IMG/VR virus record: IMGVR_UViG_3300035207_000016
Coordinates: 1 to 39,478 of that record
DNA length: 39,478 bases
DNA from: a virus
Strand: one strand, 5' to 3'
The notes below the pieces were generated by a model, which was given only the letters and a program-made list of their open reading frames with translations, did not search any database and was not told the origin of the DNA. How positions within the stretch are numbered: the stretch's first letter is position 1; the number at the start of each line of letters is the position of its first letter. The translations under genes and the position numbers were made by a program. Positions 5,504 to 37,852 of this stretch are shown here, one piece after another.

Positions 5504-8319
5504 CAGCGTGCCCCTCTACCTGCGCGCCAGAGGCGGACGTCGCTCCCGGCCGGATGTGCAGTTACGGCGCCGTTGACGGCCCGCGTCAGTGTGAGCGTCT
5601 GCGCGTCACCGCAGAGCGTGACGATCGTGGCCAACGAGATGGCCGACGCGCCTCCGACCACGGTCGCCGTGCCGGCCGGGATGTCGGCCGCCGGGGACGT
5701 CTGGATCTGGTAGAACCACGCGATCCCCATGTCGCTGCCGAGCGTCGAGCTGGGCGAACCGATCAACGTGAAGCCGGCCGGCGCGGTGACCGACGTCCAG
5801 TCATCATCCTTCTGCAGGCAGAGCAGCGTCACGGTGCCCGTGCGCACGATCCCGTTGAGCGGATAGGCGATGTTGGCTGCCGACGCGTTGGCCATCGGGA
5901 CCGCCGCGGTGTGCGCCAGCGCCTGCGTGTAGCGGAAGCCGGCCATCTGCGCGATCACCGTATCGCCCGCCGCGCCGCCGAACGGCGTCAGCGTCGGCGC
6001 CGCGAAACCGCTGGCGTACTGGCGCCCATACAGTCGGAAGCTGCCGTTGACCCCGCCGAAGTTGGCCAGCGTCGTCCAGCCGGCCTGGTCGCCGGAGATC
6101 TCGGCGTACCTCCCGGACACCCCCGTCAGGAAGGCCGACCCCCCGGTGCCGCGCACGGCCGCCAGCAGGAACAGGCCGTCCCCCGCGGTCATGCCGGCCG
6201 GCACGCCGGGCGTCACCGGGCCGTAGTCGGCCGCCGCCGACGTACCCGCCGCGACGAACGTAGGCGCGTTGTTGGTCACGGCGGTGCAGGTGACGCGATC
6301 GTAGGTGCGCAGCGCCAGATCGTAGGGCAGGCTGGTGGTCGACCACTTGGCGGTCGGCTCGCCCGGGCGCCCGTCGGTGGCGACGATGGCGGACGTGCCG
6401 GCGCTGCCGAGGTCGGCCAGCAGGATCGAACCGGCGGTGTCCGCGCGGCTGGCGTTGCCCGCTCCCGTCTCCGCCGTCATGACCTGCCATACCGCCGCCG
6501 GTCGCGTGTTGAGCGTGACGTCGTATTCCTTTTCGGTCATCCTCTCCGTGATGCCCATGATCTGCTGGTCGATGGTGTCCAGCACCTCGTACGTCGGCGG
6601 GTTGGTGAGCTGGATACGCGACCCGATGTCCACAGTGGTCGACAGGTAGGCCGCCTTGAGCCCGGACGCCGGGCCCTCCAGGTGCAGCTCGATCAGGTAT
6701 CGCGGCTCCGGATAGGATGCCAGCGCCACTGCCAGTTGCGCCGCGCCGAGCAGTTGCGCGTCGTTTTCCAGATTGACGCTGATCGGCGCGTCGCGCGCCC
6801 AACCGACCGTCGCCGGATCGTACGGTGACGGAGCATCGACCACAATAGATGAACCGCTGGCGTTGCTTGCGGTGCAGCGGTTCGACTGCGACTGCATGTC
6901 GTCCACAATGGTCAGTGAGCCGACCTGCTTGTTGGCGCGATTGATGGTGAGCGCCACCGCCTGATTCTGCAACAGGTCGCGGGTGATCAGCCCCACCGCT
7001 CCGTCTGGACGCTCGAACAGTAGGCCGCCCTCGCTCCGCGCGGCCAGTCGCATTCGGGCGGCGGGGTTCGCGATCGGCCGCGCGCCGGTGGTGGACACCG
7101 TTGAGCCGGGAAGATAGACGTCCACACCCGCGTCGATGGCAGCGGTCAGGAATTCCGACGTCAGCGTCTGCCCGATCTGGCCGTTGAAATATACGAAGTC
7201 CATCTGGCCCGGTTCGTTGAACACGGCCCAGTGCGCCATGGTCCAGCCGTCCGGACCGCCGAGGGGGCCGGTGTTGACCGTGCCAACCGGCCCGTGCGTC
7301 GCAGCGGCCAGAGTGCCGGCCTGACCGAGCCCCGTATTGAAAGCATCCTGCGACGCGACGACGCGGATACTCCAGTCGATTCCGGTGCCATTCTGCGTGA
7401 CGCTCAGCTCGATACCGACGGTGCGCCCCCACGGCTCGTTGCCGTAGATGTCCGTGAAAGACGTGACCGTGGTGCCGGTCAACAGGTTGGTCCCAGCCGT
7501 GTCCTCGGCGCGGATATTCAGGGTGGCCGGTGACCCTGGGATGATCTGGAGTACCCAGCGCCACACCGTTCCGCTGGTCGGATAGACGCACAGGAACGTC
7601 TGCGTCCCGGCCGGCTCGACCGGCGCCTTGATGGCCAGCAGCACGCCCCAACGCTCCGGGTACAGCCGCGCGTAGGCCGGCACGGAGGCGATGACGTAGC
7701 CGCTGCCCTGGATCGTCCAGCCGCCCTTGGAGCCGAGCACGCTGGAATCTCCGCCGGGCGTGATCCCGACCATTGTCGTAATGTCGGCGCCACCAGGCAC
7801 GGCTGACCGCAGCCGGGTAGCGCCAGACGGGTCTTCACCGGGCCAGTAGGCGACAACGTGCTGCTGGTTGGGACCAGGCACCAACTGGTCGTACAGAACG
7901 CTGTTACCCTCGGGCTCCTCATCGAGTACATGCAGCCGGCCGAACGCCGTGACGTCCGCGAACCGGTAGGCGCCCGCGTCGGCGGTGCCGCTGATCGACT
8001 CTTCCAGGATGCCGAACGCGCGGACGGTCGTCCCACCATCCACCCTGGACACCCGGATAGGCGTGCGACGCTTGATGATCCGGCCGTAGTACGGGTTGTT
8101 CGGATTGTTCAGCGACCAGCGCAGGTCGGCATTCTTGCCACGGAAGCGGATCTCGGTAGGCGACACCTCGCCCGATCCGTCGCGGTAGCCGCGGAAGGTC
8201 TGGACTCCGGCGCCGCCGTCGAGCTCGACGGCCGACGTCCAATCGGTCCACGTGTAGTTGGCGGACGGGACGCTCGGGTCCGGATCATCGAGCGCGACCT
8301 CAACTTTGACCTTGGCCAC
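5503..8319 (-). CDS. Minor tail protein / tail-tip adhesin, 938 aa
   Basis: Large protein directly after the tape measure. Residues 1-150 resemble a distal-tail/baseplate N-terminus (RGYRDGSGEVSPTEIRF; NPYYGRIIKRRTPIRV). Residues about 155-390 look like a LamG/concanavalin-type sugar-binding insert (YWPGEDPSG; TMAHWAVFNEPGQMDFVYFN). Residues about 395-610 return to a tail-hub-like region. From about 680 there are one or two beta-sandwich modules (PAGMTAGDGLFLLAAVRGTG ... ; VTLLCLQKDDDWTSVTAPAG). It likely combines tip structure and host recognition in one chain. GTG start just after the tape-measure stop. Confidence 0.8.
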   Translation of the reverse strand: MAKVKVEVALDDPDPSVPSANYTWTDWTSAVELDGGAGVQTFRGYRDGSGEVSPTEIRFRGKNADLRWSLNNPNNPYYGRIIKRRTPIRVSRVDGGTTVRAFGILEESISGTADAGAYRFADVTAFGRLHVLDEEPEGNSVLYDQLVPGPNQQHVVAYWPGEDPSGATRLRSAVPGGADITTMVGITPGGDSSVLGSKGGWTIQGSGYVIASVPAYARLYPERWGVLLAIKAPVEPAGTQTFLCVYPTSGTVWRWVLQIIPGSPATLNIRAEDTAGTNLLTGTTVTSFTDIYGNEPWGRTVGIELSVTQNGTGIDWSIRVVASQDAFNTGLGQAGTLAAATHGPVGTVNTGPLGGPDGWTMAHWAVFNEPGQMDFVYFNGQIGQTLTSEFLTAAIDAGVDVYLPGSTVSTTGARPIANPAARMRLAARSEGGLLFERPDGAVGLITRDLLQNQAVALTINRANKQVGSLTIVDDMQSQSNRCTASNASGSSIVVDAPSPYDPATVGWARDAPISVNLENDAQLLGAAQLAVALASYPEPRYLIELHLEGPASGLKAAYLSTTVDIGSRIQLTNPPTYEVLDTIDQQIMGITERMTEKEYDVTLNTRPAAVWQVMTAETGAGNASRADTAGSILLADLGSAGTSAIVATDGRPGEPTAKWSTTSLPYDLALRTYDRVTCTAVTNNAPTFVAAGTSAAADYGPVTPGVPAGMTAGDGLFLLAAVRGTGGSAFLTGVSGRYAEISGDQAGWTTLANFGGVNGSFRLYGRQYASGFAAPTLTPFGGAAGDTVIAQMAGFRYTQALAHTAAVPMANASAANIAYPLNGIVRTGTVTLLCLQKDDDWTSVTAPAGFTLIGSPSSTLGSDMGIAWFYQIQTSPAADIPAGTATVVGGASAISLATIVTLCGDAQTLTLTRAVNGAVTAHPAGSDVRLWRAGRGAR

Positions 8320-25978: not shown

Positions 25979-26533
25979 TCACTCACCATCGGACACATCA
26001 CCCCGTCCCGTCATGTTGCGAATCCAGGCGGTCACGGCGTCAGCCTCGCGCTGGTCGGAGTCGTACTGGTCGAGCATCTTGTGCTTGTCGATCGCCGTTC
26101 CGGCGATGATCATGAGGTTGCGTTGATCCTGGGTCGGCACGCAATCGATGACCCTCATTTCGAAAGTGTTATCTTTGCCCCCGAAGTTGAACACCTTCCA
26201 CGTCTGCGATTCCATGTCCGCGAGCGCCTTTTCGGCGGCGTGGACAAAGCGTTCGGCCAGCCTCTGCCGGCGCTCCGCGAGACTCAGTCTGGTAGCCTCG
26301 ATTGCATTTTGCATCTTGGCGCGTGTCTCGGGTGCGCCGAATTGCGGAGCATCCTCCGCCGCCGCGACGATCCGCCGCACGCTGGCCTCGGATATGCCGT
26401 GACGTGCGGCAACCTGCCGGACCGACCCGTCCGCCGTGCCTACGGTCCGTCGCGCGTCGGCCACCACGGCCTGACGCACCGCGTCGGAAATCGTACGCGG
26501 TGCGCCAGCCGGCTTGCGTGGACGCGAAGTCAT
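25979..26533 (-). CDS. terS: Terminase small subunit, 184 aa
   Basis: DNA-recognition subunit of packaging. The N-terminus is basic and Pro-rich (MTSRPRKPAGAPR). An HTH follows (GSVRQVAARHGISEASVRRI), then long helices for oligomerisation (IEATRLSLAERRQRLAERFV; HAAEKALADME). It sits directly before terL in transcription order. The ATG at 26533 has AAGGG very close; an ATG at 26563 inside the upstream HTH gene is an alternative start. Confidence 0.75.
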   Translation of the reverse strand: MTSRPRKPAGAPRTISDAVRQAVVADARRTVGTADGSVRQVAARHGISEASVRRIVAAAEDAPQFGAPETRAKMQNAIEATRLSLAERRQRLAERFVHAAEKALADMESQTWKVFNFGGKDNTFEMRVIDCVPTQDQRNLMIIAGTAIDKHKMLDQYDSDQREADAVTAWIRNMTGRGDVSDGE

Positions 26534-26549
26534 GCCCTTGATCGTAGCG

Positions 26550-26747
26550 TCATCTGCGACCATCACGGATCTGGTACAACCGCGCCTCGGTCAAGCCTGC
26601 CGCCTGCGCGATCGCGGCACGAGGCAGGCCGGCGGCCATCGCTGCGCGGATGAGGGCGTCACGCCGTATCCTGGCGCACTCGCCCTCGGCCACGATGATC
26701 TGCTCGAACTCGATATCGAACAGAAGCGCGTCGCTACTTTCGCTCAT
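26550..26747 (-). CDS. Small HTH protein, 65 aa
   Basis: Residues 30-62 form a compact helix-turn-helix (ALIRAAMAAGLPRAAIAQAA, GLTEARLYQIRDGRR). The N-terminus is acidic. Coupled by ATGA to the secreted-protein gene and overlapping or abutting terS. It may be a regulator of late genes or a DNA-binding partner of the terminase; no direct evidence for either. Confidence 0.7.
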   Translation of the reverse strand: MSESSDALLFDIEFEQIIVAEGECARIRRDALIRAAMAAGLPRAAIAQAAGLTEARLYQIRDGRR

Positions 26748-27031
26748 CCCCACGTGTCGTACCCCAACCCCTTGAACCGGCCGCAGGTCACGCCCCGACC
26801 GGTGTTCGTCTTCCCGGTCGCGCCGGCCGGCGCGCACCGGTCCCCCTGTCGTACCGGCCCGACCACGTGCAGCGTGCTGTAGGTCGGCGCCGGTGGCGGC
26901 GGCTTCTGTGCAGGCGCGACGTCGGAACACTGGGCCAGCGTCGCTCCGCCGAGCCCGAGTAGCGCAGCCACCGCCCCCACCGCGCCCAGGGCCAGCTTGA
27001 GACATCCGGCGTCCGGAGCCCGGTGCGCCAT
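26744..27031 (-). CDS. Secreted small protein with signal peptide, 95 aa
   Basis: The N-terminus is hydrophobic (CLKLALGAVGAVAALLGLGG) with a likely cleavage near ATLAQC; it could also remain anchored. A Pro-rich linker (PAQKPPPPAPT) leads to DRCAPAGATGKTNTGRGVTC, a pattern seen in small actinobacterial secreted proteins. Not a lysis gene by position. A possible envelope-modifying early protein; function inferred only from export. Confidence 0.65.
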   Translation of the reverse strand: MAHRAPDAGCLKLALGAVGAVAALLGLGGATLAQCSDVAPAQKPPPPAPTYSTLHVVGPVRQGDRCAPAGATGKTNTGRGVTCGRFKGLGYDTWG

Positions 27032-27464: not shown

Positions 27465-27859
27465 GCCCTCTCCAGTCCACTGATGATCTGCAACGCCCTG
27501 GTGATCGTCATCTTCGCCACCCCCGGCCGCCACGCGTTGAGGATGGCGACCCCCGTCCACGTCACGTCGGCCCCCGGGCGGAACGGGCGCGGCCGACCTG
27601 TGGGCGTCCTGGTCAGCGACACCCGGCGCCGGCGTTCGGAGCGTTGCCAGACCAGGAACACCCCGCCGGGCGACTGGACGCTGATGTTCTCCGCCAGCTC
27701 CCCGGTCGGCAGGAGTGCCACCGTGTGCAGCACCCCCACCCGTCGCCCCCGGTCGAGCAATGCATCGCGTGCCCGGGCGCACGCCGCCGGCAGCCGCGGG
27801 TCGTCCGGCGACCACTCCTCGACCAGCCCGACCCGCGGTGCCGACTGCGCAACGCTCAC
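27461..27859 (-). CDS. Hypothetical protein, 132 aa
   Basis: GTG start overlapping the RusA stop (GTGA). Contains WSPDDPRLPAACARARDALL, RGRRVGVLHTVALLPTGELA and an Arg-rich centre (QRSERRRRVSLTRT). It resembles actinophage hypothetical proteins adjacent to resolvases. Function unknown; basic character would allow nucleic-acid contact. Confidence 0.6.
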   Translation of the reverse strand: MSVAQSAPRVGLVEEWSPDDPRLPAACARARDALLDRGRRVGVLHTVALLPTGELAENISVQSPGGVFLVWQRSERRRRVSLTRTPTGRPRPFRPGADVTWTGVAILNAWRPGVAKMTITRALQIISGLERA

Positions 27860-28380
27860 GCGTCCGCCCCGAACATCGCACGACGGTAAGCCATCTCCGA
27901 CGCCTGTTGCGGCGCCCGGTCGGCCACCACCTCGGGCAGCGTCACGGCCCAGATGCCGATGTGCACGCCCGGTTGCCGGTAGGACATGTCGCCGGCCCAA
28001 CGCCGCGACCCCGCCCACTCGATCACCTGCGCATCGTCCTCCCACACACCGGCCTTGGAGCAGGCGTCCCATACCGCCCGGTCCAGCTTGTCCCCGTCGC
28101 GCGCTCCTGGCGCCCACAGCCCCCCGTAGACCTCGGCATCCGCGACCGGCACCGGAACCCAGTACCGGCACCGGACCATCGCACCCTCGGTCCGTTGGAC
28201 CGCCATCCAACAGGCGCCCAAACGACCGTTCATGTCCGCCAACACGGCCCGACGTACCGCATCCGACCACGCCGCGTACCCCTGCGCTGCCTGGCGCACG
28301 CCGGTACCGCCCCGGTTGACGTTAACGCTGCCTTTGGTGACCGGGATTCCCGGCACCCATACATCACACACCAGCCGCAT
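27856..28380 (-). CDS. rusA: RusA-family Holliday junction resolvase, 174 aa
   Basis: Cleaves four-way DNA junctions made in recombination and replication, probably to prepare DNA for packaging. The N-terminus VWVPGIPVTKGSVNVN is typical. The acidic active-site block is around residues 95-116: DGDKLDRAVWDACSKAG and VWEDDAQV. GGGAGG precedes ATG 28380, which overlaps the upstream gene by 17 bases. Confidence 0.85.
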   Translation of the reverse strand: MRLVCDVWVPGIPVTKGSVNVNRGGTGVRQAAQGYAAWSDAVRRAVLADMNGRLGACWMAVQRTEGAMVRCRYWVPVPVADAEVYGGLWAPGARDGDKLDRAVWDACSKAGVWEDDAQVIEWAGSRRWAGDMSYRQPGVHIGIWAVTLPEVVADRAPQQASEMAYRRAMFGADA

Positions 28381-28660
28381 GGCGGCCTCCCGTTCCGCCC
28401 GCCAGGTCGCGACCCTGACCGCGCAACGCCGCGCGGAACGACGCCACGATCTCCTCGACGCTGTCCACATCGGACGGTCGGGTGGTCCAGTAGTGCTCGG
28501 CCAGCGCGGTGATCTCCAGATTGGGCCGGCATTCATTGCGACCCGCGAACGTGACGTCGCCACACGCGAAGGCCACCACGCGCCAACACGTCGTGCAGCC
28601 CATCAACGCGCCCATGACGCGCAGCAGCGGCAGCCCGTGCGTCTCATGAATGCCCGTCAC
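28364..28660 (-). CDS. Hypothetical Cys-rich protein, 98 aa
   Basis: GTG start overlapping the upstream stop. It has HETHGLP followed by MGCTTCWRVVAFACG and NECRPNLEITALAEHYW, with four Cys that could bind zinc. The family was not recognised. It sits between an unknown helical protein and RusA, so it may join in DNA metabolism. Confidence 0.6.
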   Translation of the reverse strand: MTGIHETHGLPLLRVMGALMGCTTCWRVVAFACGDVTFAGRNECRPNLEITALAEHYWTTRPSDVDSVEEIVASFRAALRGQGRDLAGGTGGRHAAGV

Positions 28661-29000: not shown

Positions 29001-29030
29001 AACGTACATCATGCGCTGTAGTGACGTCAA
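29001..29030 (-). promoter_or_regulatory. Leftward promoter TTGACG-N18-TACGTT
   Basis: On the minus strand TTGACG (29030-29025) and TACGTT (29006-29001) with an 18-base spacer, the same geometry as the promoters at 167, 1903 and 37859. It lies over the end of the SF2 helicase gene and fires into the coiled-coil protein, RusA and packaging genes, with a short leader carrying AAGGGGG. Confidence 0.65.
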
Positions 29031-30727
29031 GCGAACGTCAGCCACGGCAGTTGCGGCAACAGCTTGCCGTCGATACGACGCTCCGCCTCAGCCGCCGTGA
29101 TCATCTCGCTGACCTCGCCCATGCCGGCGCCCAGCGGCACATCGAGCCCGAGGCGCGCCGCGTACGCCAGCGATTTCTCGCTCGGCTGCTGCGACCGCCA
29201 GCCACGCCGCCGCCGGGCGACCGTCCGGTCAACCGCCTCGATGACGCTCTCGCCCACCCGCTGTGCCTCGGCAAGGGACGCCACGTTGAGCGCGATCGGC
29301 GTGCAACCGGCGTGCCAGCGCTGCGTCGTGACCACGTCGACGCCCCCGCCACGGGCGGGGTCGGCCGGCAGCAGGCAGACGAACCGCTCGTGACCGGGGA
29401 AGTACCAGACGCCCCGTGGCGTTCGGGACCATGCCGTATCCGAACCGGCGAACAAATCGACGATCTCAAATACCAGCTTGCCCTGCTGATCGTAGGCGCA
29501 TCCATCGCGGTCGAAATCCAGCTCGACGCCGGACTCGATGATCAACTCCTCAGGATCGACCGGCTCAGCGTCGGCGGGATCGACTTCCGGCGCTTCCAGT
29601 GCGTCGGCCGCCTCGACCCCGAACAGCTCCACCCGGGCGTCGAGCGTGTGTCGCGCCGCCGCGCCGGCCACGTCCAGCACCAGCGCGTCGACCTTGCCGG
29701 GCCAGAGCCTGAGCACACGCCCGACCATCTGGATATACAACCCAGAGTGCTTGGTCGGTCGCGCTATGACGCAGACCGACGCCATCGGCAGGTCGGTCCC
29801 CTCCGTGAACACTGCGCAGTTGCACAGCCATGCCACCTCCCCGGCCCTGTAGCGATCCAGGACGGCCGAACGCTCCCCCGCCGGGGTTCCACCATGCACC
29901 AGAGCCGCAGTGAAGCCCTCAGCGGTCAGAACATCCATGATCACCCGGGCGGAATCGACCGTCGGCGCGAAGACAATTCCCTGCCTATCGGGACATTGCT
30001 CGCGGATGGCCTCGGCGATCCGCTTCGGTGCCATCGAATCGGACAGCGCCCGACCGAGCGAGCCGTCCTGGTAGTCCCCGCGGGCGGTCTTCACCCGCCG
30101 CAGGTCGAGGTCGTCCACCGTCACCCGGATGCCGGTCGGCCGCACCAGCGTCGGGACGCCGTCATTGCCCTCGCCGCGGATGGCCTGCCCGATGGTGCGG
30201 CGGAAGACCACGTCCTGCCAGACGTCCCCCAGCGCCAGGTCATCCGACCGGCTCATGGTGGCCGTACAGCCGACGGCTACCGCCCGGCCGTCGTACGCGC
30301 CGAAGTGCCGCAGCAGCGACACGTACGACCGGGCAGCCGCCCGGTGCGCCTCGTCCACGACGATCAGGCCGACCCCGCGCAGCATGGCCCTCCTGCGCTC
30401 GCTGGCCAGGGTCTGCACGCTGCCCACCAGCACGGGCGGCAACGTGTCGTTGCGGCCGGCCATCACCACGCCGACCGGCACACCGTCCAACGCGTGCCGC
30501 AGCCGGTCGGCCGCCTGCTCGATCAGCTCGATGCGGTGCGCCACCACGAGCGCCCGCTTGCCGGGGTTCTCCGCCAGCCACGGCGCCACGATCTCGGCCG
30601 CGATCACCTGCGTTTTGCCCTCGCCGGTCGGCAGCACGTAGGCCGGCCTCGCCATGCCGCCGGCCCAGGCGTCGCGGACGGCCCGGCCGGCCTCGATCTG
30701 GTACGGCCGGCTGACGTGACGGCTCAT
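29027..30727 (-). CDS. SF2 DEAH-box helicase, 566 aa
   Basis: ATP-dependent helicase or translocase of superfamily 2. It begins SRPYQIEAGRAVRDAW with motif I PTGEGKT, motif II LIVVDEAHRAAARS, motif III GCTATMS, then the second RecA-like domain with IVFAPTVDSARVI, LVHGGTPAGER, motif V TEGTDLPMASVC and motif VI YIQMVGRVLRLWPGK. The C-terminal 190 residues are an accessory domain. Likely involved in replication or recombination. ATGA overlap with the small winged-helix gene upstream. Confidence 0.9.
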   Translation of the reverse strand: MSRHVSRPYQIEAGRAVRDAWAGGMARPAYVLPTGEGKTQVIAAEIVAPWLAENPGKRALVVAHRIELIEQAADRLRHALDGVPVGVVMAGRNDTLPPVLVGSVQTLASERRRAMLRGVGLIVVDEAHRAAARSYVSLLRHFGAYDGRAVAVGCTATMSRSDDLALGDVWQDVVFRRTIGQAIRGEGNDGVPTLVRPTGIRVTVDDLDLRRVKTARGDYQDGSLGRALSDSMAPKRIAEAIREQCPDRQGIVFAPTVDSARVIMDVLTAEGFTAALVHGGTPAGERSAVLDRYRAGEVAWLCNCAVFTEGTDLPMASVCVIARPTKHSGLYIQMVGRVLRLWPGKVDALVLDVAGAAARHTLDARVELFGVEAADALEAPEVDPADAEPVDPEELIIESGVELDFDRDGCAYDQQGKLVFEIVDLFAGSDTAWSRTPRGVWYFPGHERFVCLLPADPARGGGVDVVTTQRWHAGCTPIALNVASLAEAQRVGESVIEAVDRTVARRRRGWRSQQPSEKSLAYAARLGLDVPLGAGMGEVSEMITAAEAERRIDGKLLPQLPWLTFA

Positions 30728-30981
30728 GGGCGACTGTAGATCGCGCGCTGATGTCCCGGCCGCGGATCGGGGTAGACCACCCGCAGCTTGCCGGCACGCC
30801 GCGCCGCGCGCAGAAGATGCTTGGCGGTGCCCTCGACGATGCCGGCCCCGCACCCGATCTCGCAGAGCTGGCGGGTCGTCAACTCCCGGCCATCCCCCAG
30901 TGCGTCCCACATCGCCTGCCAGGCCGGGCCGATCAGCTCTCCGGCCATCGGGTAGTCACCCATGAAGTTCGGTGCGGTCAT
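30724..30981 (-). CDS. Small winged-helix-like protein, 85 aa
   Basis: Contains AWQAMWDALGDGRELTTRQL, EIGCGAGIVEGTAKHLL and AARRAGKLRVVYPDPRPG: helix, helix, wing, as in winged-helix DNA-binding domains. No Shine-Dalgarno site before ATG 30981. A -10-like TAACAT lies eight bases upstream, so the message may be leaderless, though the -35 is weak. Coupled to the SF2 helicase; may load or regulate it. Confidence 0.65.
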   Translation of the reverse strand: MTAPNFMGDYPMAGELIGPAWQAMWDALGDGRELTTRQLCEIGCGAGIVEGTAKHLLRAARRAGKLRVVYPDPRPGHQRAIYSRP

Positions 30982-31004
30982 AACGGGGGATGTTAGCACT
31001 GCAC

Positions 31005-31187
31005 TTAACCTCTCGCCAGGTAGGCGCGCACGCCGCAGCAGGCCGGCGTGAGCCCGACGAGATCGGTTCGACCATGGCACGGGCAGCGGCCGTTGGCACA
31101 CGCCCACCCGTCGCGGCTCTCCCGGCACCGGCACGGGTACGGCTGATCGATTGCCGTGCCCGTGATCAGCCACACACCTGTACGCAT
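31005..31187 (-). CDS. Small Cys-rich zinc-ribbon-like protein, 60 aa
   Basis: Cys pattern CRCRES, CANGRCPCHG and ACCGVRAY suggests metal binding. GGGGAGA lies about ten bases upstream of ATG 31187. First leftward gene after the iteron array. A small zinc protein beside an origin could help replication, but this is inference from position. Confidence 0.55.
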   Translation of the reverse strand: MRTGVWLITGTAIDQPYPCRCRESRDGWACANGRCPCHGRTDLVGLTPACCGVRAYLARG

Positions 31188-31245
31188 ATCTTGATGTCTC
31201 CCCTATCGTTGTGACTTTACGTTGCGACCTGTGACCTGTGACTGC

Positions 31246-31275
31246 TGACCGCACTACTACTTCGTAGTGCGGTCA
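31246..31275. repeat. 12-bp-stem hairpin at edge of iteron array
   Basis: TGACCGCACTAC (31246-31257) and GTAGTGCGGTCA (31264-31275) are perfect inverted copies around the six-base loop TACTTC. The right arm overlaps the first iteron. No T-run follows on either strand, so an origin structure or protein site is as likely as a terminator. Confidence 0.8.
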
Positions 31276-31462
31276 CAGCCTTTGGTCACACCCTCACGGG
31301 GTAGGTTGAATTGATCACGGTCACAGGTTGGTCACACGTTCGGTCACATGGGTTGAGCTGCACAAACGTCAAGATCTTTGATCATGGTCACAGGATGTCG
31401 ATCATGGTCACAGGCTCGGTCACAGCGGTGACTCTCTGTATCGGTCACAGCTACGGTCACAG
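31271..31462 (+). repeat. Iteron array, ten GGTCACA(G) repeats; candidate replication origin
   Basis: Direct copies start at 31271, 31284, 31319, 31330, 31342, 31386, 31406, 31418, 31443 and 31455. An inverted copy CTGTGACC lies at 31229-31236 and a 7/8 inverted match at 31236-31243. Neighbour spacings are 11-13 bases or longer steps (20, 25, 35, 44), mostly near whole helical turns. Some iterons sit in longer repeats (GATCATGGTCACAGG at 31380 and 31400). The tract is noncoding, starts right after the prim-pol stop, and looks less GC-rich than the genome. Confidence 0.8.
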
Positions 31463-31463
31463 G

Positions 31464-33827
31464 CTAAGTATTACTCTCCGTGACGTCCGTCAAAATGATC
31501 TCGAAACCGGTCGGTCCTTCGGAGATCAACTCGCCGGACTTCCCACGGTTCGGAGATAGGACACCATCGATTGATTGGTCGGCCAGCTCGACCACCTTGA
31601 ACCGGCCGGCACCGTACGACTTGGCGACCAGCCCAAGCTGGATCAGGTCGGCCCACGCCCTCGCCCACGCCTTGCGGAAGCCGGCGCCGGCCGGCCCGGA
31701 CGTCGGTCCCGGCCATGCGACGTCCGCGAATGCCTGCCGGATCTCCGCCAGCGTGCCGCCCATGCCGGGGTTGTACCGTCGGTGGACGACCGACCACAGC
31801 GCCCGAGCCCGCGTCGTCCGGGCGCTCTCCCGCGGTCCGTCCACCGCCACCGACACATCGCCACGCCAGGCTGGGGCGACCCCGAGGACGGCCACCGGTC
31901 CCGGCTCACTGAACCCCTCGACGCCCGGCGCGGCCACGTCGACAAGATCGAATACGGCGTCGTCCGGTTCGGCATCGTCCTTAACCTTCCCGGTCTTCAT
32001 GGTGATCTGCCGGCCGATCCTGGTCACCCCCAACTCGGTCTGCAGCGCGCCCGTCACGGCCGTCGAGCCGCGCCCGTGCGTGCCCGTGCGTCCGGTGTGG
32101 TGCACCAGCAGGACGCACGCACCGGTGGCCACCCTCAGGGCGTCCAGGGCGTCTACGAGCTGGCCCATCTCGCGCGCGTCGTTCTCGTCCGCCCCCACCG
32201 TCACCCGGGCCTGCGTGTCGACCACCACCAGCGCCGGCGCGATCTCGGCCAGCAGGTCGCACCACGCCGGCCACTCCGGACCGGCCGCCTGGACCGGCCG
32301 GGGCAGGAAGCGCACATCCGCGATTTCGCGACCGTGGTGCGCCTCCCAGGCGTCCACCCGCGCACCGACCCCTTCGTCGCCCTCGGCCACCAGATAGACG
32401 ACCGGTCCGGCGGTCGTCGCGCGCCCCGCCCACGCCATACCGGCGGCAATCCGAGCGGCCAGATCGAGCACGATGAACGACTTGCCGTGTCCGCTCGGGC
32501 CGTTGATCCGGGCCAGAGTGTTGCGGTAGAGCAGGCCGGCCACCAGCGGACGCAGCCTCGGCCGCGCCTTGAGTTGCGCCGCGCTCAGCAACTCCCCGCG
32601 CAGCCGCTCGCGCAGCGCGGCCCGGTCCCCGCCGCGCAGCTCCGCCAGGCGGAGGTCGGCAGCCTCGCGTATCAGCCGCCGGTTGACCTCCGCCTGAACC
32701 GCCGCCTCCCAGCGCGGGTCAATCGAAGGTGATGTTGTCGTAGAGCCAACGTGGGTGAGGGAACTGCTCGACAGCACTCCCGGCTCGCTGAACCCCGGGA
32801 TCGACATCGATGCCGCGCCGTTGGAGCTCGGCGAGAAAGGGAGCACACCTGCTGCATCCGTCGGCGGAGTCGGCCACACCTCCACCCGCAGTGGATCGGT
32901 CCACTCGGGCGGCAGCTCCGCCGGGCGGTCTCCGACGCGGTGCGTCGCGCTACGCCAGAGCGAGGCGACCTCGGCCATCGGCACGATGATGCCGAGCGGG
33001 TGGTCGCACGTCGCCGCTTCCCAGTCGTCGGCCGCGTTCCGACCGTCGCCCAACCAGCCAGCGTTGGTCAGCTCGATGATCCGGCACGCCGCCCGGAACG
33101 CAAGATCGTTACGGCTCGTCTGCGCGTTGCACAGCTCGGTCAGCAGTTCGCGCACTGCCGCGGTGGCGTATCGTTGTCCCCGGTCGTCGCCGTTTGAGGA
33201 AACCGAAGGCGACCAGCCGGCCGGCGGTTCTCTCGTGGGAGGGAGTACCGCCGGCCGGATCATGTCCAGCAGCCACCCCGGCGGCTTGTACGGCAGTGCG
33301 TCTGTCAGCTCGACGTACGCGCCCTTGCCGCTCACGCTCGGCGGAGCGACCACCTGGCCGCCCGTGCCGCGCACGTCCAGGCCGGCCGGCAGCGTGCCGC
33401 GCCGGTTGGTGACCTCGAGATCCGCCGGCATCCGGAAGCGCCAGTGATTTCCTCCGCCACCCGTTTCGACGTGCGGACCGCCGATCTCGGCGTTGACGCG
33501 CTGCACCAGCGAGCACGCCTCTCCGGGCGTGGCTCCGTCGTAATCGTTCGCCGGATCGTAGTCGAGTACCCAATGTCCGGACGGCGCGCCGGTCGCGATG
33601 CCGATATTCCACTGCGGTTGCCACAGCGCCGCATCGCGGACAAGGTTGAGCGGCGCGTGCCACTCCCGCCAGATCGGATGCTTGCCGGCGGACGGGCAGC
33701 GTTCCGCGCCGCGCGTGCACGTGCAGCCGTTGGGGCCGATCGAATGCAGTGGGACGAGCGCCCACCCGCGCGCCAGATAGGCATTGACAAACCTGAGCAT
33801 TTCTGTATGTACCGTGCTATCGTCCAC
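31464..33827 (-). CDS. Prim-pol / RepA-like helicase fusion, 787 aa
   Basis: Replication initiation protein. Residues 1-200 are a bifunctional primase-polymerase domain: Asp89 and Asp91 in WVLDYDP, His128 in GGGNHWRF, and GLDVRGTGGQVVAPPS near 149-164. A Cys/His cluster (CTCTRGAERCPSAGKH) may hold zinc. A helical middle and a linker with IPGFSEPG (FSEPG 346-350) follow. Next is a RecA-fold ATPase with Walker A GPSGHGKS (about 442), Walker B LVVVDT and LLVHHTGRTGTHGRGS. A second FSEPG is at 639-643, then a winged-helix end. GTG start chosen for the upstream GGAAGGAA. The iterons lie just 3'. Confidence 0.85.
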   Translation of the reverse strand: MDDSTVHTEMLRFVNAYLARGWALVPLHSIGPNGCTCTRGAERCPSAGKHPIWREWHAPLNLVRDAALWQPQWNIGIATGAPSGHWVLDYDPANDYDGATPGEACSLVQRVNAEIGGPHVETGGGGNHWRFRMPADLEVTNRRGTLPAGLDVRGTGGQVVAPPSVSGKGAYVELTDALPYKPPGWLLDMIRPAVLPPTREPPAGWSPSVSSNGDDRGQRYATAAVRELLTELCNAQTSRNDLAFRAACRIIELTNAGWLGDGRNAADDWEAATCDHPLGIIVPMAEVASLWRSATHRVGDRPAELPPEWTDPLRVEVWPTPPTDAAGVLPFSPSSNGAASMSIPGFSEPGVLSSSSLTHVGSTTTSPSIDPRWEAAVQAEVNRRLIREAADLRLAELRGGDRAALRERLRGELLSAAQLKARPRLRPLVAGLLYRNTLARINGPSGHGKSFIVLDLAARIAAGMAWAGRATTAGPVVYLVAEGDEGVGARVDAWEAHHGREIADVRFLPRPVQAAGPEWPAWCDLLAEIAPALVVVDTQARVTVGADENDAREMGQLVDALDALRVATGACVLLVHHTGRTGTHGRGSTAVTGALQTELGVTRIGRQITMKTGKVKDDAEPDDAVFDLVDVAAPGVEGFSEPGPVAVLGVAPAWRGDVSVAVDGPRESARTTRARALWSVVHRRYNPGMGGTLAEIRQAFADVAWPGPTSGPAGAGFRKAWARAWADLIQLGLVAKSYGAGRFKVVELADQSIDGVLSPNRGKSGELISEGPTGFEIILTDVTESNT

Positions 33828-33967
33828 TACGGATTCCTTCCCAAGGGTGATCCCCGACCGACCCCGTCCCACGCCCCCGGACCGCCGACCGTACGCCTGT
33901 GACACCCCCGTAGACCAGGCAGCACGTCCCGCGGTCGGGCCACGTGGCCGGCGGGGTCGCTTCGGCT

Positions 33968-35313: not shown

Positions 35314-35624
35314 TGAGTGACCTTCGCGAGCTCCTGGACGATCTGATCGCTTCAGCCGCGATGGATGCCGAAGAGAGCCGGGAGGACTACAGTCCGGCAA
35401 CCAACAGCATCCGCAACACGATCATTGAGCGGTACAGCCGGGGTGCCGACGCGCCCAGCGTCGCGCGTGCGTTCCACGAGACGTACGAACGGCTGGCGCC
35501 GGAGCACGGCTACCGGACCCGCGAAGCGAGTGCGGTCGGATGGGACGCCGTACCGACCGCGAACAGGGCACTGATGATCGCGACAGTGCAGCATCTGATC
35601 GACGCGGGAGTGATCAAATCATGA
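35313..35624 (+). CDS. Hypothetical helical protein, 103 aa
   Basis: ATG 35313 follows GGAGG at good spacing. Begins MSDLRELLDDLIASAAMDAE, then RNTIIERYSRGADAPSVARA and LMIATVQHLIDAGVIKS: acidic and helical, with an HTH-like middle possible. It overlaps the RecB-type nuclease gene by ATGA, suggesting joint translation and perhaps a partner role. Confidence 0.65.
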   Translation: MSDLRELLDDLIASAAMDAEESREDYSPATNSIRNTIIERYSRGADAPSVARAFHETYERLAPEHGYRTREASAVGWDAVPTANRALMIATVQHLIDAGVIKS

Positions 35625-37852
35625 GCAAGGCGAGTGAATTGGAAGAGAGGCGTCTGGCGGCCGAACGTGTCGCATCGCGTTGCGACGCACTGATCGTAAC
35701 CTCACGAAGTGCCGGCTTGGAGGGCGTAGAGATCCCTGGACAACTGACGGTTGTCGCAGAACTCCTTCTGGCCGAGGCGACGCACATCAGCGAGCAGCGT
35801 CGCAAGGGGTGGCAGTCCTCGATGCGTGAGTACGCCGCCGCCGGGCGCATCCTCGAGCAGTGGGCGAAGGATCTGGCGGCACACCTGGAACAGGACAAGC
35901 CGCCGGCCCGGCCGCCGATCGACCTCTCCGACCCCGCGCAGCGCAAGGCGCCGGACGGCACGCCGAGCGTGCGCGGGCTCATGGACATCGCGGCCGGCAG
36001 CAACGGCACGCCGGAAGCCTCCTGGCCGGAGGACGGCCCGATCACCCCGGATGCCGCGACCAGGGTCCGACTGGCGATCGAGGCGGGCAGCAAACCGACC
36101 GACGATGCCGTGCTGAGCGTCGCGTTCGACGTTCCGCCCATCGTCAATGAGACCGGCCTCGACCCGTCGGTCGTGGATCGGATGTCGGCGCTGCCGACGC
36201 TCGACGCCGCGTTCGGGCCGCCGGACCGGTTCACCGCGGCAGTTGAGCAGCATAGCGCCGTCGTCCGAAGCGCGGTCGACAAGATGCTGACCGCAGACAG
36301 GACATTCGGGCCGCAGTTGCTGATACACATCAGGGCAGCGCCGACCAACTACGCGTGGTGCTCCGCGACATACGGCCTGCGCGCCTACGTCAACACGGCC
36401 ACCTGTCCGGAGTGCATCGCGGCGTGGGACGCGCACCACGAGACGTTGTATGACGCCAAGACCGATCGACGCCATCCGGCCAGTCGGCTGGCCAGCGTCA
36501 AGCTGGACCCACCCGTGACAATCGAGGCGCCGGGCGCATACACGATGGCCGTCCTGAGCGCGCCGGACGGCACGGTGATCGACGCCTCGCTGACTCCGAC
36601 CATCCCGGCATTCAGTGAGCCCGGTCCGCCGCCGGCGCAACCGATCGATGACAAGGTGACGCGCGGACCGGAAGCGTGGCCGATGCTCGGCGCGGCGCAG
36701 TACGTGATCGAAGATCCCGCGCCATCCTCGGCTGTGGTCGACATTCACGGCAAGCCGCACTCCGTCGCGCTTCCGTCGCGCTTCCGTTCGGGCATTCTGG
36801 GAGTCGCCTACCTCATGTACGAGGATGGCCGCTGTGAGGTTCGCAGTATCGACTTCCGGCTCGACCCGCCGTCGCAACTGGAGATCATCGCAGCCTCGCG
36901 TACGCCGGACGTGCCACAGTTCAGCGAGCCCGGACCGGCGCCCGCCCGTCAGACCCAACAGCGCATGACGTTCGACGCGGTACGGGAACACGGCATGGCG
37001 CGCGCCCGCGGCGCCGATCACCGGTCCTACTCGCAGGTGACGTCGTTCGCCGAGTGCGGCGTGCGCTACGCACTGTCCGATCTGGACAACGCGCCGGCCT
37101 GGTGGAACGTGGGCGGTACGGCGCTGCACTATGCGCTGGAAGCCATCAACCTGCAGCGTGGTAGCGACACGTGGCCGGAGGCGTTCGGTCGGGCGATCTC
37201 GGAAGCGGTCGCGGAGTCCGGCGTCACCCCGGACCGCTGGCGCGCGGCGAAGAAAGGCGCCGAAGGGTACGACTGGTGGCGCGTGCAGGGTGGGGCGATG
37301 GTCGGCCGGTGGTTGCAGCGTCTCGGGCAGTTGCTCGGCGACGGGTGGACCATCGCCACCATCGACGGCAAGCCGGCCGTCGAGCTGTCGATTCCGATGA
37401 CGATCCAAACGTTCGCGGGCACTCCCGCGATGATGCCGAATGGCATCAAGGTCGAGAACGTCATCGATCTGGTGCTGGTCCGTGGCGACACGTTTCTGAT
37501 CGTCGACTTCAAGAGCGGCGCCAGCGCGCCCGATTCGACGTACCAACTCGGGCAGTACGCTCACGCGCTGGCCCGCGCGATCGAATCGGACAGTCGCATT
37601 CAGGCGACGATGCGCATCGTCGGCGCGTACTGGCTCGCCCGCAGCGACATGCTCTCACCCGTCGACGTGACAAAGAGCGACACGACGACAGACCTGCGCG
37701 ACCTGCATCCGTGGCCGGAGATCGAGTACCTGATCACGACCATGCACGCGGCCGAGTCGCAGGGGCTGTATCTACCGAACAAGAGCAAGAGCGATCGGTT
37801 CGGGTGCGGTTCGTGCGGCGTGGCCGGCCTGTGCCCGGTCGGCCCGTCATGA
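35621..37852 (+). CDS. RecB/Cas4-like PD-(D/E)XK nuclease with large N-terminal region, 743 aa
   Basis: The C-terminal 280 residues are a PD-(D/E)XK exonuclease: SYSQVTSFAECGVRYAL (about 469), KVENVIDLVLV, catalytic IVDFKSG (about 626), then YQLGQYAHALARA. The final Cys block (CGSCGVAGLC) with the Cys of FAEC fits an iron-sulfur cluster as in Cas4/AddB. The N-terminal 440 residues are unassigned: helical start, CPEC near 262 and two beta regions. Two linkers carry FSEPG (331-335, 434-438). Probably processes DNA ends in replication or recombination. Confidence 0.8.
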   Translation: MSKASELEERRLAAERVASRCDALIVTSRSAGLEGVEIPGQLTVVAELLLAEATHISEQRRKGWQSSMREYAAAGRILEQWAKDLAAHLEQDKPPARPPIDLSDPAQRKAPDGTPSVRGLMDIAAGSNGTPEASWPEDGPITPDAATRVRLAIEAGSKPTDDAVLSVAFDVPPIVNETGLDPSVVDRMSALPTLDAAFGPPDRFTAAVEQHSAVVRSAVDKMLTADRTFGPQLLIHIRAAPTNYAWCSATYGLRAYVNTATCPECIAAWDAHHETLYDAKTDRRHPASRLASVKLDPPVTIEAPGAYTMAVLSAPDGTVIDASLTPTIPAFSEPGPPPAQPIDDKVTRGPEAWPMLGAAQYVIEDPAPSSAVVDIHGKPHSVALPSRFRSGILGVAYLMYEDGRCEVRSIDFRLDPPSQLEIIAASRTPDVPQFSEPGPAPARQTQQRMTFDAVREHGMARARGADHRSYSQVTSFAECGVRYALSDLDNAPAWWNVGGTALHYALEAINLQRGSDTWPEAFGRAISEAVAESGVTPDRWRAAKKGAEGYDWWRVQGGAMVGRWLQRLGQLLGDGWTIATIDGKPAVELSIPMTIQTFAGTPAMMPNGIKVENVIDLVLVRGDTFLIVDFKSGASAPDSTYQLGQYAHALARAIESDSRIQATMRIVGAYWLARSDMLSPVDVTKSDTTTDLRDLHPWPEIEYLITTMHAAESQGLYLPNKSKSDRFGCGSCGVAGLCPVGPS

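Follow-up and report, generated by a model that had tools for sequence, protein, structure and literature searches.

The window analyzed here, that is, the entire stretch of 39,478 bases of an IMG/VR virus record (68.5% GC), carries a set of virion genes (terminase, portal, major head, major tail, tape measure, and endolysin) and, on its reverse strand, a gene for a prim-pol/RepA-like helicase that ends at a dense array of short repeats (Table 1). GGTCACA occurs ten times on the forward strand without mismatch (7 nt each, starting at 31271, 31284, 31319, 31330, 31342, 31386, 31406, 31418, 31443, and 31455), within 191 nt, and the nearest of these iterons ends 2 nt from the prim-pol stop codon (31464-31466, reverse strand). 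Elsewhere in the window, the heptamer is found on the forward strand 2 more times and on the reverse strand 2 times, one of the latter, at 31230, adjoining the array, whereas, in 2000 dinucleotide shuffles of 31201-31470, GGTCACA never exceeded 3 copies, and no 7-mer exceeded 5. Read from the prim-pol stop codon, the ten-iteron array is followed by a 12-bp hairpin, two or three inverted copies of the repeat, and a gene for a 60-aa product, the outermost partial repeat lying 22 nt from the next start codon. The two iteron clusters of the array are separated by a 37-nt spacer that is among the AT-richest parts of the tract (60% AT in 31353-31382), but the clearest symmetry of the array is about the hairpin rather than about this spacer. 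The initial annotation had described ten direct noncoding repeats that begin at the stop codon of a prim-pol/helicase gene, with inverted copies and a 12-bp-stem hairpin at one edge, and all these features are borne out, the stem being perfect. The bounds that it gave to the noncoding region, however, are better redrawn as in Table 1, and its statement that the repeats lie mostly one or two helical turns apart is only roughly true because the start-to-start spacings are 13, 35, 11, 12, 44, 20, 12, 25, and 12.

Table 1. Features of the putative origin region and adjoining genes (positions in the window; a dot marks features without strand)
Feature	Position	Strand	Basis or remark
Prim-pol/RepA-like helicase with C-terminal winged-helix-like domain; candidate initiator	31464..33830	-	start codon inferred from L338; open frame to 34067
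Prim-Pol domain PF09250	33300..33782	-	E 1.2e-22
RecA-fold helicase domain AAA_25 PF13481	32082..32582	-	E 1.2e-34; best solved match RSF1010 RepA
C-terminal domain, candidate iteron-binding	31587..31835	-	predicted helix-strand-helix-helix-strand-strand (winged-helix order)
Noncoding intergenic tract, putative origin	31188..31463	.	276 nt, 53% GC vs 68% in window; prim-pol stop to next ATG
GGTCACA iteron array, n=10	31271..31461	+	exact matches
Candidate unwinding site: iteron-free spacer between two iteron clusters	31349..31385	.	composition; role inferred
Perfect 12-bp hairpin, iterons converging from both sides	31246..31275	-	arms 31246-31257 / 31264-31275, 6-nt loop
Extended dyad, hairpin plus paired inverted iterons	31230..31290	.	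61 nt, -22.2 kcal/mol as ssDNA, z -8.2 vs shuffles
Inverted partial iteron TGTGAC	31237..31242	-	sequence match
Inverted iteron (TGTGACC on +), beyond hairpin	31230..31236	-	sequence match
Inverted partial iteron TGTGAC, outlying	31210..31215	-	sequence match
60-aa gene just past array	31005..31187	-	same place in L338; in L419 after one extra gene
DEAD/ResIII helicase, same replication module	29027..30910	-	syntenic in relatives

The Prim-Pol and AAA_25 domains named in Table 1 were both found in the gene that ends at the array. Neither an SF3 helicase nor a SaPI-type AAA+ Rep helicase was found in this candidate initiator; the domain search gives instead the RecA-fold, RepA-type AAA_25 domain, and the best structural matches of the protein model in a Foldseek search are to RSF1010 RepA (1nlf and 1g8y, E 3.6e-11 to 4.7e-11, TM 0.71-0.73 by target). 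In the AF2 model, the C-terminal domain shows the succession of elements listed in Table 1, with moderate confidence (pLDDT of about 76-91 over the main helices), and comparison with PDB produced no match by sequence and no significant match by fold (best E 0.29). The leftward replication/recombination cluster to which the gene belongs also encodes a RusA-like Holliday junction resolvase (27856-28563, reverse strand). A rightward cluster, which diverges from the prim-pol gene from about 34.2 kb on, includes a gene (35540-37852, forward strand) for a 770-aa protein with a C-terminal PD-(D/E)XK nuclease domain of phage exonuclease families. Searches of the window for a family A polymerase, a tyrosine integrase, ParA, and ParB were all negative.

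Single-sequence scans of viral and genome contigs recovered no close relatives of the prim-pol/helicase, and relatives had to be sought with alignments as queries; among annotated phages, DNA and protein comparison recovered distant relatives only, and 13 divergent proteins gave an alignment too weak to serve as a scan query. Alignment-based scans yielded two relatives over the full length of the protein, L338, from a 39.6-kb contig, and L419, from a 41.6-kb one; the L338 protein is 57% identical to that of the window over its whole length. The array and the hairpin are kept in place, directly past the stop codon, in both, and the comparison of the intergenic tract among relatives that the initial annotation had called for thus came out in its favor, with the qualification that, in L338, the repeat itself has been replaced. 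On the coding strand, the window repeat reads TGTGACC, that of L419 differs from it by one base (CGTGACC), and that of L338 (TCGTCGG) is unrelated. The helicase core of the window protein is closer to that of L338 (74% identity) than to that of L419 (52%), whereas, for the C-terminal domain, L419 is the closer one (66% vs 46%), and because the two identities rank oppositely, the iterons in this trio track the C-terminal domain and not the core. The downstream genes are common to the three genomes, and those of the window are closer to those of L419; on the whole, L419 is therefore probably the closer relative, with the core as the part that has been exchanged by recombination, but the comparison separates the core from the C-terminus even if the core has recombined. 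A second short motif, CAAGATC or GATC, lies between or beside the iterons in all three (31349-31397 in the window, 4906-5110 in L338, and 7460-7660 in L419) and could be a second binding site.

The association between the repeats and the C-terminal domain extends beyond this trio. Across 55 array loci, the similarity of iterons correlates with that of C-termini when the similarity of cores is given (partial r 0.48, 0 of 2000 permutations, with the C-terminus cut relative to the HH motif), although its magnitude is sensitive to the limits chosen for the domain: an earlier, cruder cut gave a weaker and less specific result, with partial correlations for both the C-terminus and the core. The converse relation, between iterons and cores given the C-terminus, is negative in the same 55 loci (partial r -0.27). 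When the cores are 0.4-0.6 similar, the mean repeat similarity is 0.82 for pairs with alike C-termini (0.45-0.70, 7 pairs) and 0.29 for pairs with unlike ones (<0.12, 85 pairs), these pair counts not being independent, given that the loci are related. Because the C-terminal domain and the array are adjacent on the DNA, part of the correlation could stem from their being inherited together, with no need for binding.

The survey from which these loci come included 160 viral contig loci with RepA-like helicases together with annotated phage and plasmid loci, and a dense array was defined as a 7-mer with at least 5 copies in the 300 nt located 3' of the helicase stop codon. Such arrays were detected in 55 of 110 non-redundant 3' flanks vs 3 of 159 other low-coding gaps of the same loci, so that the description of an iteron array as uncommon does not hold: half of the non-redundant loci with RepA-like helicases carry one. 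With a threshold of at least 6 copies, random windows gave 0/435 and 0/440, and flanks gave 34/77 and 15/80, the latter counted before the removal of redundancy. The repeat sequence varies by lineage, for example, TCGGCCA in L343, TGAGACA in L345, GGCGGAGAT in Rhizobium phage RHph_N65, GTATAAA in Roseobacter phage CRP-822, TGCGGAAG in a Caenibius plasmid with a terminase gene, and AAGTGCGGCA in a capsid-bearing element of Klebsiella; RHph_N65 and CRP-822 are among the array-bearing full tailed phages and have complete genomes and named hosts. The loci L042 and L045 share GGTCACA with the window, which may be due to convergence because their C-terminal domain is not alignable with that of the window beyond background. 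Related helicases without an array were found in Nocardia phages KYD2 and NBR1, mycobacteriophages Courthouse and Phelemich, and Tsukamurella phage TPA2, and the actinobacterial phages KYD2, NBR1, Phelemich, and TPA2 indicate that the helicase family does not force an array. DNA polymerase A was encoded near 0 of 55 array loci vs 8 of 38 comparison loci (p 5e-4), a difference that is only suggestive; the array-bearing RHph_N65 has a DNA polymerase gene elsewhere in its genome.

Several further arrays were noticed along the way. L342 (about 5989-7168) and L379 (about 5761-6028) have no array right after the helicase but contain dense 7-mer arrays, of 10 and 13 copies, respectively, away from the helicase stop codon, possibly relocated origins or parS sites. 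Arrays of the TGCGGCA type directly follow the helicase in L257 (4976-5300) and L252 (4961-5180), from Salmonella and Klebsiella records, in elements that combine a capsid gene with genes for an integrase and a RepA-family helicase and that resemble capsid-bearing satellites. L128, L131, L053, and L069 each have 11-14 copies of GGTCACA within 217 nt, and no relative of the window helicase was found there.

The hairpin, too, has recurrent properties. In 38 of 72 array loci, there are hairpins that are not built from the repeats themselves. These hairpins have a C-rich 5' arm (C minus G 1.93 vs -0.23 in controls) and frequently TA at the tip (59% vs 21%), and T-runs behind them are mostly absent. 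Across array loci, iteron orientations are distributed 178:36 before the hairpin and 35:48 after it, a tendency to flip that is nearly complete in the window, L338, L419, and the group of L362, L376, L390, and L398. A literature search, limited in coverage, found no description of such a convergent layout of iterons and hairpin, and a search of Rfam found no match. What the sequences establish is the anatomy of the tract, the constancy of its place despite replaced repeat sequences, the coupling of the repeats to the C-terminal domain, and the flip of iteron orientation at the hairpin.

On the strength of these sequence comparisons, we consider it very likely that the intergenic tract is the replication origin of this phage and that the protein encoded just before it is the initiator, the two making up a self-contained replicon. 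The iteron origin postulated in the initial annotation, with the prim-pol protein as the prospective binder of the iterons, thus gains support from conservation in place, tracking of the C-terminal domain, convergence on the hairpin, and the lack of the hallmarks of two rivals, a parS site and a terminator. The change in GC skew around 31.3 kb that had been proposed as a mark of the origin was not seen: the detrended skew, which follows gene direction, has its extremes at about 34.5 kb, where the gene direction changes, and at about 20.3 kb, and no switch occurs at the array in two complete array-bearing phages either. GC skew is neutral, speaking neither for nor against an origin.

The array might, alternatively, be a regulatory site without origin function, through which the replication protein or a phage repressor would control the genes at 29-31 kb; it does consist of several short operator-like sites upstream of co-directional genes, with a start codon close behind the outermost partial repeat. 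We regard this as improbable, given that the place of the array 3' of the helicase is fixed in unrelated loci with different downstream genes, that the repeats track the helicase C-terminal domain, that the convergent hairpin layout is unusual for operators, and that no promoter-like site was detected in 30900-31900, in a scan that covers GC-rich hosts poorly. Regulation by the same protein is a possible second role of the array. The origin could also be served by another phage protein, which would attach to the iterons and bring in the prim-pol helicase, much as in RSF1010, where iteron binding is the task of RepC and RepA only unwinds (PMC4234260), and two HTH-like open reading frames near 26-27 kb (25979-26566 and 26550-27005) might encode such a protein. 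That arrays adjoin the helicase gene in unrelated loci and that the iterons vary with the C-terminal domain of the helicase itself, over and above its core, make a separate initiator quite improbable.

In appearance, the closest rival is a parS-like partition centromere, likewise composed of short direct repeats beside a replication gene: parS of mycobacteriophage RedRock consists of 8-bp direct repeats, and in Miko and Rachaly, such parS are located directly downstream of repA (PMC7157519). Partition is nevertheless a highly improbable role here because the repeats track the helicase C-terminus and because neither a ParA-type ATPase (PF13614) nor ParB (PF02195) was detected in the window, possibly an incomplete record, by searches for which control genomes were positive. 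A strong hairpin downstream of a gene could, finally, be nothing but the transcription terminator of the prim-pol gene, with the repeats incidental. This explanation is scarcely credible in view of ten repeats that exceed chance, a scan that revealed no terminator-like site with a T-run, and the features of the other array hairpins, mostly devoid of T-runs but endowed with an oriented C-rich arm and a TA tip.

If the tract is an origin, replication would start with the binding of the winged-helix-like C-terminal domain to the GGTCACA iterons, and because these are oppositely oriented on the two sides of the hairpin, a helicase ring would come to lie on either side of it. Single strands would then be exposed as the AT-richer spacer melts, the hairpin is extruded, or both, on which the RepA-like RecA-fold helicase would load and unwind the DNA. 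The N-terminal prim-pol would make the first primers, perhaps at the hairpin, like the RSF1010 primase at ssi hairpins, which is the least certain step. Given the negative search of the window for a family A polymerase, chain elongation is probably performed by the host, perhaps an actinobacterium, judging from the GC content.

To our knowledge, the replication origins of most phages are unknown. We tentatively propose, with somewhat more doubt than conviction, that the window represents a large, undescribed class of phage origins, in which RepA-type helicases with a C-terminal winged helix would be served by private iterons directly 3' of their genes, with a conserved hairpin of fixed orientation (5' arm rich in C, TA at its tip) as their point of convergence and the start site, and in which the C-terminal domain and the array would form a specificity unit that changes independently of the core. 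If such a class exists, sequence alone could suffice to recognize both origin and initiator in many uncultured phages; its confirmation would also imply that one modular origin design is common to phages and satellites and that initiator-origin specificity is predictable and testable from sequence.

PICIs are satellites without a full set of virion genes, and the characterized SaPI Reps are AAA+ helicases; the SaPI replicon is said to have been described as a pri-rep-ori unit by Ubeda in 2007 and 2012, and older reports placed origins of streptococcal phages near primase genes. In PICIs, the origin follows rep immediately on its 3' side, and plasmid replication can be driven by rep-ori (PMC6092414). 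The window resembles the SaPI/PICI arrangement in having a putative iteron origin directly 3' of the replication gene, more than one iteron set, and an apparently self-contained replicon. SaPI/PICI Rep reads the origin via its C-terminus (PMC7581432), as we infer for the window protein. In SaPIs and PICIs, two iteron sets flank an AT-rich region; in the window, the two clusters flank the 37-nt spacer, but the clearest symmetry is that about the hairpin. Unlike these satellites, the window represents a tailed phage that encodes a terminase, portal, capsid, and tail proteins of its own, and the RepA-type RecA-fold helicase of this phage is fused to a prim-pol, with iterons converging on a hairpin.

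Other known systems share parts of this design. In SCCmec Cch2, the isolated C-terminal domain binds the 3' repeats (PMC7581432), so that here, too, a helicase C-terminal domain is paired with direct repeats just past its own gene, as predicted for the window; Cch2, however, is treated as a D5-family helicase, with three AAGTG repeats and a separate primase/polymerase (PMC7581432). The pRN1 ORF904 protein unites a prim-pol, a helicase, and a C-terminal winged helix (in the window, a predicted fold) and has an essential 3' stem-loop origin, comparable to the hairpin of the window, but its helicase is of the SF3 type, the stem-loop is about 100 nt long, there are no iterons, and the replicon is an archaeal plasmid (PMC4234260). 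RSF1010 (IncQ) has a helicase of the RepA-type fold, which the model of the window protein matches, as well as iterons and priming hairpins, but there, the helicase, the primase, and the iteron-binding protein are three separate proteins (PMC4234260). PrimQH-type AEPs combine a primase, a RepA-like helicase, and a C-terminal winged helix; in the parts of the source available to us, the C-terminal winged helices of prim-pol/RepA proteins are predicted to recognize origins, and no 3' iteron/hairpin origin is described (PMC5862659). The placement being already known from SaPIs and PICIs, what appears to be new here is that a probable 3'-adjacent iteron origin occurs in full tailed phages and is combined with a RepA-fold helicase and a conserved hairpin, and the phage of the window is best called not a PICI but a phage whose origin would work like a PICI replicon.
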